In this document: positions 740 through 57,958 of the stretch, piece by piece | How the letters are laid out: the number at the start of each line of letters is the position of its first letter | Numbering within the stretch: the stretch's first letter is position 1 | NCBI GenBank assembly: GCA_964019415.1 | Contig: OZ025872.1 | Location: 1,624,199-1,688,198 of the forward strand | Direction: 5' to 3' | Length of the DNA: 64,000 nt | From: Ianthella basta | Taxonomy: Eukaryota > Porifera > Demospongiae > Verongiida > Ianthellidae | Position numbers and translations under genes: made by a program | Notes under the pieces: model-generated | What the model was told of the DNA's origin: nothing | Database searches by the model: none | The model's input: only the letters and a program-made list of their open reading frames with translations

Positions 740-925
740 TCTTCAGATCCTTCTTCACATGGCAGCCATGTTTCTTCAGCATTTGAACGGCTTCCTGCAT
801 TACCTTTGGGGGTTTTGCTAACAGGACTTGACAAAGATGGTCCTCCCACTCCCTCCTCCCCTTCCTAGCCACCTCAGAGCACTCTTCCGCTGTTAGGAGG
901 TGTCTAGTGAAGAGCTCATTCAATA
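740..925 (-). CDS. Death-fold (CARD-like) exon, copy 1
   Basis: A 186-base open exon (62 codons). Seen: acceptor CACCCTGCAG just upstream, donor A|GTGAGTTATAC at the other end, first and last codons both split after base one (phase 1-1). The product begins LNELFTRHLLTAEECSEV, continues with an acidic-aromatic EWEDHL stretch and LLAKPPKVMQEAVQML, and ends near KKHGC. Leu-Thr-x-Glu-Glu followed by a Leu-Leu-x-Lys-Pro helix and a final 'hxxLxxxG' helix is the layout of CARD/death-fold domains, which act as adaptor interaction modules in NLR and caspase pathways; that assignment is inference. At least seven more full copies lie on the same strand. A dispersed repeat is the alternative, but open frames and preserved splice sites argue for a real exon. 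Confidence 0.72.
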
Positions 926-1120
926 CTGCAGGGTGTGAATAGGTTTACAAATCACTTCACCACTCACTGCTTCATGCAGTGTGCTGTGTACACATTTTCA
1001 CTACACAGTATACACTCAACAGTTGGACACATGTAAAAGGAACCAGAAAGTAAGACCCCTCCTACCCCTACCCCTGCACTGTTATTACCATACCTACATC
1101 AAGTGAGCACTTGTCTGGAA
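926..1120 (-). repeat. Conserved intron flank upstream of death-fold exon
   Basis: About 200 bases upstream (in gene sense) of the acceptor that recur almost unchanged at 6805-6960, 19372-19560, 22515-22770, 26022-26282, 44054-44340, 46813-47060, 56875-57130 and 57959-58085. Shared words include GTTGGACACATGTAAAAGGA and AGTAAGACCCCTCCTACCC. The duplication unit is therefore exon plus intron sequence, not the exon alone. Confidence 0.9.
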
Positions 1121-2000
1121 TCATTTGCAAACAAAACACGTATCAATGAATGAACAACAAGATCAGTAGAATGTTTCCATCACTACCGAAAAAGTAATAG
1201 AGGTGCGATTAAGCTTAAAGAATAGAAAATGGTGATGGTGACACACACACACACACAACACACATACACCCACACCCACACACACACACACACACACTAC
1301 ATACACTAAAAGTTGCTTGTTACATGAGGAAGCCATACATCAAAGCAAACTGCAGTGTGCTAATTTCGCATAACGCCACTGTGTATGCTTTCACACCTCA
1401 TTACACACTGCGTCGAATGGGGCTCGTATTTGCTAACCCAATCACTTTTTAGCCTTAAACAAATGTTTTGTTTACTGCTTTATCAATCACCTTGTGAACT
1501 TTCTCATGAACATTGGCTCTGGAATGATGAGTGCTTGTCACTTGGTAGCATGGTCATCAACATAAATTTATGCCTAGCACAGCACTGCATGGCAGTGACA
1601 TGCAATTGTGCATGTAATGTCTTTAGTGATAGAGAAACCAAGATTCCCTTTCCCGAGTTCACTTGATGGATCAACTTGAAGGTAGGTCTCGCCACTCCCA
1701 AGTTCTCCAGTCGTTTAAATTCTAGTACACTCTCTAAAAAGAAAGTTCTCCCTTCATACGCTGCTTGCAGGACTTCTAATAATCTGCCCTAGTGCCGACT
1801 CAAGCGGCGCCGACGCTTTATTCAGTACGAGAGGCCGCTGACAGCCTTTTTCTTGCGACGCTTCTCGTGTTTTGCCTTGTGCTCCAAGAAGAGCGTGTTC
1901 TCTGGTTTCTATAGTAACTTCAGTCAGGTTCGTTCGGTAAATTCATTCGACAGCGAACGAATTCAAGCGCTAATCGCTGCTGTTTGAATCGTAACAAGTC
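1121..2000. other. No gene recognised; short CA tracts
   Basis: Impure CA repeats at 1242-1300. Open stretches near 1385-1700 on both strands have no recognisable domain. The rest is unremarkable. Confidence 0.6.
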
Positions 2001-2139
2001 AGTTATAACATGGCCGCGAGGGCGCTGGCTGATTTATCACACGAGGGCGCGAAGCGCCCAAGTGCGATAAATCAGCTAAGCGCCCGAGCGAGTCAAGGAC
2101 AAGAATTGGTTGTTGGAATGCATGTTCGTTATAACTAGT
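2001..2139. repeat. Foldback hairpin with GGGCGCGAAGCGCCC core
   Basis: The core palindrome at 2045-2059 is flanked by arms GCTGATTTATC and GATAAATCAGC, and further out by AGTTATAACATG matched by CATGTTCGTTATAACT. A LINE-like stretch (TCAAGGACAAGAATTGGTTG and following bases) lies inside the right arm and recurs at about 2409-2440. Related cores occur at 38262, 43039 and, decayed, 21661. Confidence 0.75.
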
Positions 2140-2173
2140 ACTTGTGTAAACTTGTAACACAATGTGGTAAAGT

Positions 2174-2610
2174 GTGTGCATGTGTGGGGGGACCATGTTG
2201 CGCAACTTCCTCGTGGCGATCCCTGGTTCCTGGGCTATGGCCCAGCCGATAGCACAACGTGGTACAGTTGGAGTAGCGCCCCATCATGTGCCCTGCACAT
2301 CTACAGTGGATGTGCAGAATCTCTCAGCTTCCAAACCTGAGAAGGTTAAGTCTACATTGCCCAAGAAGTCTTCAACCCTTTCTGTGTCTTGTGGATTTGT
2401 CCACGCCAAGTCAAGGACAAGAATTGGTTGTTGGAATGTTCGTTCACTTGGATCTTTGAGTGATCAAAGTGCTCAACTGCTCTCTGTTATTGATACCATG
2501 AAGTCTAAGAGCATTGATCTTATAGCTTTGTCCGAGTCTCGTTGGCCTGGTAATGGCATCTCTACCATTCGTGGTACCACTGTTCTTCACTCCAAGCAGT
2601 GTCTCGCAAG
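2174..2610 (+). pseudogene. LINE endonuclease fragment (RTE-like)
   Basis: Reads in one frame into RTRIGCWNVRSLGS, then IDLIALSESRWPGNG and TTVLHS, the N-terminal part of an apurinic-type endonuclease (exonuclease-endonuclease-phosphatase fold) of a non-LTR retrotransposon. The Asn of CWNVRS and Glu of SESRW fit the catalytic metal site. Only about the first third of the domain is present; the reading then runs into unrelated sequence before the Tc1 element. RTE/CFDP2-like is my best guess for the clade. Confidence 0.7.
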
Positions 2611-2699
2611 AGAATACTTATGTAGGCTTTTTACCAATCTAATATTACATATACAGTACGCGTCATAAAAAGGTAACGACAAATGAGAACCACATTCCG

Positions 2700-2796
2700 A
2701 CAGCAGTTAACGGTTTAGCGTTAGCAGTTAACGGTTATGCGTTAACGGTTAACGGTTAAGCGTTAACGGTTAAGCGTTAACGATAACGGTTAAGAG
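2700..2796. repeat. Left subterminal repeats of Tc1 element
   Basis: Seven or so copies of a unit close to GCGTTAACGGTTAACGG. The mirror image occurs at the other end of the element. Such arrays are commonly transposase-binding sites in Tc1 elements (inference). Confidence 0.8.
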
Positions 2797-2868
2797 TACG
2801 CAAGAATATTCGGAAGGTGCTAAGTCGATCGCTCAGTTGTTGCAAGTCGCGCGCAGGTTCAGTGGATT

Positions 2869-56691: not shown

Positions 56692-56874
56692 TCATCAGCT
56701 CCTCCACACAACAGCCATGTTCCTCCAGCACTTGAATGGCTTCCTGCATTACTTCCGGAGGTTTGGTCAACAGGACTTGAGCAAGGTGGTACTCCCACTT
56801 CCACCACCCCTTCCTAGCCACCTCAGAGCACTCTTTTGCTGTTAGGAGGTGTCTAGTGAAGAGCTCAATCAGTA
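56692..56874 (-). CDS. Death-fold (CARD-like) exon, copy 7
   Basis: 183 bases (61 codons), open, phase 1-1, acceptor CACCCTGCAG, donor A|GTGAGTTATG. Reads LIELFTRHLLTAKECSEVAR, then KWEYHLAQVLLTKPPEVMQE and EEHGCCVEELM. The LIELF and TAKECS variants are shared with copy 6, while KWEYHLAQ is shared with copies 3 and 8, so the array shows mosaic sharing that suggests exchange between copies. Confidence 0.75.
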
Positions 56875-57206
56875 CTGCAGGGTGTGAATAGGTTTAGAAA
56901 TCACTTGATCACTCACTGCTTCATGCAGTGTGCTGTGTACACATTTTCACTACACAGTATACAATCAACGTTTGGACACATGTAAAAGGAAGCAGAAATT
57001 AAGACCCCTCATACCCTTATCCTCTGCACTCTTATTACCATGTACATCAGGTAAGCACCATTCCCACAATCCCTGGCACATAGCCCTATTCTACATATAC
57101 AGTAGGCAGAAAGGTCTACCGTTTCTTCTTGGATAATCCATTTTACATACTATTGTACTATAGTCTTAATATGGAGATGTTTCACCCCACCCTCTAGTGT
57201 GCTTGT

Positions 57207-57270
57207 GTGGTGTGTGTGTGTGTGTGTGTGTGTGTGTGTGTGTGTGTGTGTGTGTGTGTGTGTGTGTGTG
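57207..57270. repeat. (TG)n microsatellite
   Basis: About 60 bases of TG between exon units. Confidence 0.96.
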
Positions 57271-57351
57271 TACAGATGGTGCATGTGTCACTATCAAGTA
57301 GTCACAGTGCAGTGCTTATCAAAGTGTGCAACTATATTACGTATAACTCAC

Positions 57352-57417
57352 TCTTCGGCTCCTTCTTGACATTGCCACCACGCTCCTCCAGTACTTGAAT
57401 GGCTTCCTGCACTACCT
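57352..57417 (-). CDS. Short (66-bp) death-fold exon form, copy 3
   Basis: Third copy of the 66-base form, same edges (ACCAAACCTGCAG and A|GTGAGTTATAC), phase 1-1. Reads EVVQEAIQVLEERG, then a few polar residues. All three share exact length. Confidence 0.45.
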
Positions 57418-57472
57418 CTGCAGGTTTGGTGTGTGTGCGTGTGTTACTTCATTTAATCACAACCTTTGTAAT

Positions 57473-57639
57473 CAGAAAGGGTTGGTTCTCTAATACCAGC
57501 TTCACAACAGCCTTCTTCGCCCCTGAAGAAGACCAGAGCATCTGGTCGAAACGTCGGCAAGGTTTTCAACCCTGTTGTGAAGCTGGTATTAGAGAACCAA
57601 CCCTTTCTGATGCCTGAGCCAGCTGAGAAGCCCTCACTT
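57473..57639. mobile_element. Penelope-like fragment with perfect 38-bp inverted ends
   Basis: 167 bases inserted in the intron flank with a 13-base target duplication CAACCTTTGTAAT (57460-57472, 57640-57652). The arms at 57473-57510 and 57572-57609 are perfect mirror images. Between them lies a hammerhead-like motif. Terminal inverted arrangements are typical of Penelope-like insertions. Confidence 0.75.
57523..57555 (+). ncRNA. Candidate hammerhead-type ribozyme motif
   Basis: CTGAAGA, one extra A, the perfect 7-base stem GACCAGA/TCTGGTC with GCA loop, then GAAAC and GTC. This fits the hammerhead core CTGANGA...GAAA...NUH with a minimal third stem, as reported for Penelope-like elements. 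Activity cannot be judged from sequence. The related site at 19272-19304 is decayed in the first core box. Confidence 0.5.
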
Positions 57640-57775
57640 CAACCTTTGTAATGTTTCCTTAAACAAGTGGTGGAGTTGTACACAAATGCAGTCTATGCAG
57701 TTGGTGCATGTGTCACTATCAAGTAGTCATAGTGCAGTAATTAGAACACAACTCGTCAAAGGGTGTATAACTCAC

Positions 57776-57958
57776 TCTTCAGCTCCTCCAAATAACAGCC
57801 ATGTTCCTCTAGCACTTGAATGGCTTCCTGCACTACGTCCGCAGGTTTGGTTAACAGGACTTGAGCAAGGTGGTACTCCCACTTGCACCCCCCCTTACTA
57901 GTCACCTCATAAATCTCCTCTGCTGTTAGGAGGTGTCTAGTGAAGAGCTCATTCAGTA
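57776..57958 (-). CDS. Death-fold (CARD-like) exon, copy 8
   Basis: 183 bases (61 codons), open, phase 1-1, acceptor CACCCTGCAG, donor A|GTGAGTTATAC. Reads LNELFTRHLLTAEEIYEVTS, then KWEYHLAQVLLTKPADVVQE and EEHGCYLEELK. It is the closest relative of copy 3. It is the rightmost, so in the sense direction it is the first recognisable exon of the array; the 5' end of the gene would lie beyond it, possibly outside the window. Confidence 0.75.

Follow-up and report, generated by a model that had tools for sequence, protein, structure and literature searches.

A 64,000-nucleotide stretch of the Ianthella basta genome (C5:1624199-1688198 of a 209-Mb assembly, whose contigs carry C-numbers here; hereafter the window) probably contains the 5′ exon array of a gene from a large animal Roco (Roc-COR GTPase) family. 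The original prediction, made from the letters of the window, had proposed a multi-exon family of interchangeable, symmetric phase-1 exons. That proposal stands but was incomplete, in that the exons appear to supply only the N-terminal region of a gene for a Roc-COR GTPase. From its sequence, the family is best read as a rapidly varying sensor array mounted on a conserved GTPase switch, and its members look like candidate immune sensors, for which an innate-immune role may be supposed.

The repeating unit of the array is a short exon that we call A. The window contains eight full A exons exactly as previously described: all lie on the minus strand and are open in the same frame, with a TGCAG acceptor, an A|GTGAG donor and phase 1 on both sides, and the lengths of 8/8 are divisible by three (Table 1). 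Each matches a single family consensus beyond chance (blastn E 8e-25 to 2e-83). A search with one copy added four fragments to the earlier list, one a 5′ half and three 3′ halves, with an AC-repeat preceding at least two of the latter. A family profile search further recovered two exons of a second, diverged type, B, which is sister to A (minus-strand profile matches at 9004-9144 and 37925-38092), both of which read open. All 14 array pieces in the window (8 full A exons, 4 fragments and 2 B exons) are on the minus strand. Introns around the full copies can be aligned for a few hundred bases at ~70-95% identity, with the exception of the copy at 25025, where scarcely anything aligns outside the exon. 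The array continues past the window with a further minus-strand A exon at C5:1693086-1693268.

The gene to which these exons belong is indicated by what lies just beyond the window's low edge. A Roc-COR exon is found there on the same strand (C5:1617729-1620368, minus), 3.8-6.5 kb past the edge, and the exons in the window are therefore best explained as the 5′ array of that gene. This exon spans 880 codons from stop to stop and is 86% identical to an intact paralogue over 808 columns. The organization of a complete member is provided by an intact locus at C5:851400-867399, which comprises an exon 1, a divergent exon C, a B exon, five A exons, an 816-codon frame with Roc-COR features and two further open frames that appear death-fold-like by eye. 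The N-terminal exon 1 and exon C were first found adjoining A exons at other loci. One repeat is carried per symmetric-phase exon, upstream of the Roc-COR exon, at the DNA level. Wherever they could be read, the introns bordering exons of types A, B and C and the one at the Roc-COR acceptor are in phase 1, so that any number of array exons could be joined in frame.

We asked how this arrangement is distributed across the genome by scoring the best 150 of 394 A-exon candidates and the best 55 of 340 Roc-COR candidates. A same-strand Roc-COR exon lies within 60 kb downstream of 117 of the 150 scored A exons and an opposite-strand one of none, while 97 have exon 1 on their own strand no more than 60 kb upstream. 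Among the copies listed, the plus strand of C5 approximates a repeated 1-A...A-R order with gaps, and the stretches bounded by exon-1 and Roc-COR marks contain from 1 to 12 A exons. At the DNA level, the same succession of exon 1, C, B/A exons and Roc-COR is repeated across the genome, and identity to the query reaches 82% or more in 46 of the 55 Roc-COR loci scored.

These counts bear on whether the A exon might instead be a mobile or interspersed repeat with a chance exon-like open frame. A 35-base A-exon pattern (up to 3 mismatches) has 220 matches, which, together with conserved non-coding flanks and a region rich in transposable elements, is what such a repeat might leave. The matches fall on both strands (126 forward, 94 reverse; 0 for the reversed control), as do those of a B-exon pattern (48 forward, 68 reverse; control 0). 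The original prediction had named copies in both directions with random stops as a sign against an exon family; copies on both strands are indeed seen genome-wide, yet they sit mostly in a few clusters, and each cluster follows the direction of its own Roc-COR exon. Stop-free frames are found in 149 of the 150 scored A copies, although the scoring is biased to open frames. Full copies elsewhere in the retrieved loci, away from the central one, give 33 open and 1 frameshifted (L021) out of 34, a sample in which overlapping loci include repeat reads of the same copy. An automated donor pattern missed three of these non-central copies, L021 and two that are open by eye (L040 at 1622, L047), and likewise 4 of 30 central copies, each of which has an open frame. 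Since the copies run with their own Roc-COR exon and not at random, we reject the interspersed repeat as very improbable.

One locus suggests how arrays may change. On C16 (L040, C16:1177000-1186999), nine A exons occupy ~8.4 kb, mostly 976-977 bases apart, with nearly identical introns and recurring exon versions; this array is a recent tandem duplication. Between 3560 and 8442 the exons switch back and forth between two protein versions, interrupted once, at 7465, by a third, a pattern expected from unequal crossing-over of two-unit blocks. Tandem Repeats Finder, with a longest period of 500, returned nothing for this array. A 1764-codon frame around two A copies at C5:957259 (L039), considered as a fused protein, proved to be an artefact of an N-reading stretch. 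A search of a protein collection gave 12 array matches and 365 Roc-COR matches, of which 120 were listed, possibly from the same species; their attribution to other species was dropped because Roc-COR loci at 58-65% also occur within the genome that was searched. Two further groups of loci were observed in passing. A separate Roco expansion at C20:3.9-4.4 Mb has nine clear COR-A (Pfam) matches and open frames of 1168-1356 codons, and distant relatives of exon C (~29-39% identity) form same-strand clusters at C1:14.59-15.06 Mb and C13:6.92-6.99 Mb (+), many of them within longer frames.

The original prediction had assigned the exon product to the CARD family from its helix pattern and had suggested a profile search and a structure prediction. 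A profile of 31 exons aligned by hhalign to seven CARDs from the same genome with a probability of 97.3 (E 1.9e-11), covering CARD positions 21-83 of 84. Profile matches of the exon family in the PDB include 2mn4 (E 7e-4) and RAIDD (E 0.054). The AlphaFold2 (AF2) model of the exon product is all-helical with five helices. Its listed matches include the CARDs of CARD8, RIP2 and caspase-1, none of them significant alone, and structural alignments to CARD-like chains start at residue 24-26, except for CARD8, which has its own numbering. Based on these alignments and the model, each exon is predicted to encode CARD helices 2-6 with helix 1 absent. The CARD assignment is thus upheld by the same-genome profile alignment and amended in that the domain is without its first helix. 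PF00619 was matched by 0 of 31 exon members in Pfam at E up to 1, and single A and B exons gave nothing usable in Pfam.

The large exon downstream is best read, from its motifs and profile matches, as a divergent Roc-COR. Among 55 homologues, the consensus sequence retains the P-loop motif GPPxxGKT together with DxGGQ and GTHLDK. At E up to 1, Pfam matches Roc in 39 of the 55 (best E 0.0049) and COR-A in 24 (best E 3.7e-4). At that threshold no NACHT is listed for the large exon or for its homologues, and the exons scanned with Pfam gave no kinase domain. The exons considered throughout are those identified through homology or from long open frames. The Roc domain of LRRK2 is a weak PDB profile match (E 0.045), ranked below an unrelated one.

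A comparison of the two parts of the gene reveals different constraints. Pairwise ratios of nonsynonymous to synonymous substitution (dN/dS, or omega) among four Roc-COR exons are 0.24-0.42 (0.30-0.42 for pairs with the window locus, 0.24-0.31 for others), and the maximum-likelihood estimate is 0.49. For 53 distinct A exons, the maximum-likelihood estimate is 1.02; measured against the consensus, the eight window copies give a dN/dS of ~1.08 and another 50 copies one of 0.97. Pairwise pN/pS, the ratio of the corresponding proportions of differences, ranges by bins over 0.63-0.86 for all pairs and 0.46-1.04 for the few window pairs. At the DNA level, a conserved GTPase engine accompanies a tolerant array. 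A neutral simulation using each copy's own substitution number expects stops in 4.6 of the 8 window copies and produced a stop-free outcome in 0 of 2000 runs, a result that overstates the independence of copies with a shared history. Three changes in the 25025 copy would each alone create a stop and were left out of the window dN/dS. The earlier proposal that a dN/dS near 1 would speak against the exon family therefore misfires, as such a value is found here although stops are avoided.

Exon and flank divergence, the comparison also suggested with the original prediction, depend on the relatedness of the copies. Over all copies, exon diversity is 0.113 and that of the flanks 0.247 and 0.388, and when the two copies are distantly related, the exon has changed less than the flank. 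Among the 37 pairs with flank divergence below 2%, by contrast, exon pN is 0.039 and pS 0.046 against 0.012 in the flank, with pS 4.0x and pN 3.4x the flank value. Greater variation of exon than flank is accordingly true of closely related copies only and was discarded as a general rule. Both exchange of exon variants between copies and diversifying selection fit the close-pair excess, and the two cannot be separated here. When distinct changes are counted, omega is 0.47 at 11 hydrophobic core positions and 1.05 elsewhere (Fisher p 1e-4), the core positions having been picked after the alignment and entropies were viewed. The most variable residues are 20-21, 23-26, 29, 32, 37, 42-43, 47-49, 52, 56 and 58-60.

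These patterns also admit an interpretation in which the array is a valency scaffold instead of a sensor, with the number of modules setting the docking of signalling partners and sequence change being mostly drift. The repeat resembles the death fold, which is known for homotypic assembly; its omega is close to 1 and not above, and the number of A exons per run varies. The predicted absence of helix 1 may, on the other hand, remove canonical CARD filament contacts, and the close-pair excess in exon pN goes beyond drift alone, though the raised pS may mean exchange. We consider a scaffold possible but unlikely.

Several observations weigh against a working sensor gene, either for the family or for the locus in the window. 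At the family level, the first member scores under the Pfam curated cut-offs for both Roc and COR-A, and the AF2 model of the Roc-COR product is unusable (predicted local distance difference test, pLDDT, 34). An A-exon omega near 1 is by itself no proof of diversifying selection, and per-cell counts over all copies give no core effect (omega 1.08 in the core versus 1.11). Tail exons are readable in the intact locus and not at the window locus; the tail modules of the former have no Pfam match of note and align to CARDs by hhalign with probabilities of 42% and 1%, both weak. The second tail module is 47% identical to a segment of locus L003, which also holds a Pfam-level CARD.

At the window locus itself, the Roc-COR exon has gained a net 32 nt at a point ~75 nt from its 3′ end, which shifts the frame relative to the paralogue. 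This frameshift gives weight to the reading in which the family is real and the window locus is dying or dead, its introns swollen by transposable-element insertions, its exons disappearing and its array no longer giving a working protein, and slightly lowers our confidence in the main reading. Four of the 12 A copies are fragments, three of the eight full copies are clearly altered (6640, 43892, 46588), and the introns are filled with transposable elements, whose coding sequence lies between the exons (Tc1-like DDE_3, two RVT_1, Helitron-like, DDE_1) and beside them (Ty3-like reverse transcriptase/RNaseH). The array extends over ~68 kb to C5:1693268, whereas at the intact locus the A exons together span ~6.4 kb. 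Neither exon 1 nor exon C was found in the window or the 39.8 kb upstream (to C5:1728000), and among the best 150 of 314 candidates none falls on the window-locus strand within C5:1.34-4.19 Mb. Decay is opposed by the open frames and splice sites of all eight full A copies, by the two open B exons and by the stop-free outcome that neutral simulation never reproduced. The Roc-COR exon, moreover, is stop-free before the frameshift, its other coding indels relative to the paralogue are of 18, 54 and 3 nt, and its dN/dS values against three paralogues lie near those among the others, as given above. We give decay an even chance, the window locus being as likely decaying as working; this is compatible with the broader assignment of the array to a Roco family.

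Table 1. Array pieces on the minus strand of the window (positions count from its first letter)
Feature	Position	Strand	Basis
A exon, 186 nt, phase 1-1, nearest copy to Roc-COR exon	740..925	-	sequence
A exon, 165 nt, without 21 nt at 5′ end, in frame	6640..6804	-	sequence
B exon, ~159 nt, internally shorter than other B exons, in frame	8985..9143	-	ends by eye; B pattern match C5:1633316-1633350 minus
Fragment, A exon 5′ half	18432..18542	-	copy/profile search, blastn
Fragment, A exon 3′ half after AC-repeat	21946..22023	-	copy/profile search, blastn
A exon, 183 nt	22332..22514	-	sequence, blastn
A exon, 186 nt, flanks hardly alignable to those of other copies	25025..25210	-	sequence
B exon, ~186 nt	37906..38091	-	profile; ends by eye
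A exon, 162 nt, most diverged, several indels summing to a multiple of three, open	43892..44053	-	sequence
A exon, 225 nt, carrying an in-frame insert of 42 nt	46588..46812	-	sequence
Fragment, A exon 3′ half	56436..56513	-	copy/profile search, blastn
A exon, 183 nt	56692..56874	-	sequence, blastn
Fragment, A exon 3′ half after AC-repeat	57350..57427	-	copy/profile search, blastn
A exon, 183 nt, 5′-most copy in window	57776..57958	-	sequence, blastn

Other elements share the region with the array. A 333-codon stop-free frame of a Tc1-like transposase (DDE_3, HTH_Tnp_Tc3_2) occupies 4927-5928 (-), and a Ty3-like retroelement at 58976-62950 (+) consists of two long frames end to end, with reverse transcriptase and RNaseH on 60614-61900. 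Frames of up to 461 codons at 2824-4511 (+) fall within a degenerate proline-rich tandem repeat. Four frames contain a VE-x-NPGP motif, which we take to be 2A-like: 10070-10627 (-) and 16433-16984 (-), which are homologous by eye, 33176-33697 (+) and 50272-51474 (-). Just downstream of the window Roco locus, an 828-codon frame (L061 1198-3681, minus, in C5:1604199-1614198) appears ankyrin-like by eye.

Comparison with known systems, for which we draw on parts of the sources cited, places the family closest to ROCO genes described elsewhere. Brown-algal ROCO genes, numbering 9-47 per species, contain 72-bp phase-2 leucine-rich repeat (LRR) exons that undergo exon shuffling and diversifying selection (PMC11378527). 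The LRR-ROCO genes among them resemble the sponge genes in combining Roc-COR with an N-terminal array, in having one symmetric-phase exon per repeat and in belonging to an expanded family; array shuffling and diversification, many suspected pseudogenes and a proposed role as immune receptors are further parallels (PMC11378527). The repeats themselves differ, the algal unit being the 72-bp phase-2 LRR and the sponge unit a phase-1 CARD-like helical module of ~160-225 bp. In N. decipiens, ROCO genes are mostly dispersed over scaffolds, whereas many sponge Roco genes are clustered; alternative splicing, a possibility in the sponge family, is reported for algal LRR-ROCO genes (PMC11378527).

Among animals, the placozoan Trichoplax has at least 17 ROCO genes, including proteins with CARD or death domains, and so similarly combines an animal Roc-COR with these domains (PMC4104024). 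The portion of that account drawn on here describes no CARD-like exon array and reports fewer genes (PMC4104024). Sponge NLRs (PMC12909245) and the TRADD-N expansions in Amphimedon and others (PMC8195603) are likewise lineage-specific and pair a death fold with a switch or variable part. Their switch, however, is NACHT or another domain instead of Roc-COR, and where the family described here has death-fold exons, they vary in LRR, ankyrin or similar units (PMC12909245, PMC8195603). Human ROCO proteins are DAPK1, LRRK1/2 and MFHAS1 (PMC11378527). The Roc-COR core is common to these proteins and the sponge family. DAPK1 ends in a death domain, and we know of no CARD-like exon array in any of the human proteins. 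A literature search, which left subscription papers mostly outside its reach and is no proof of novelty, found no report of an animal Roco gene with CARD-like exon arrays.

These features suggest how a working member might function. The spliced protein would begin with a chain of CARD-like modules (helices 2-6), followed by the Roc-COR switch and a death-fold-like C-terminal tail. Unequal crossing-over and exchange between copies would change the length and sequence of the array, whose variable surfaces may bind ligands or partners. Binding would then switch the Roc-COR GTPase/dimeriser, and the tail may recruit downstream adaptors. The family would in this respect work like an NLR (sensor, NTPase switch, death fold) with a Roco engine, and would likewise resemble the exon-shuffled brown-algal LRR-ROCO genes, although its own shuffled exon would encode a helical death-fold repeat.

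A bolder and rather doubtful extension of the sensor-array reading is that an animal has independently evolved the brown-algal solution: dozens of clustered, hypervariable Roco receptor genes with interchangeable helix-1-less CARD exons, mixed by unequal crossing-over, exchange and perhaps alternative splicing. In such a protein, with helix 1 absent and the last helix of one module possibly running into the first of the next, the modules would stack as a continuous alpha-helical solenoid, the death fold having been turned into a ligand-sensing repeat. To our knowledge, death-fold domains are known as signalling adaptors and have not been described as the portion of a receptor that varies. If this extension is true, truncated CARDs serving as an exon-shuffled sensor on a Roco GTPase would constitute a receptor class outside TLR, NLR and RLR, and the sponge family would provide a convergent animal case for the exon-shuffling idea developed for algae.

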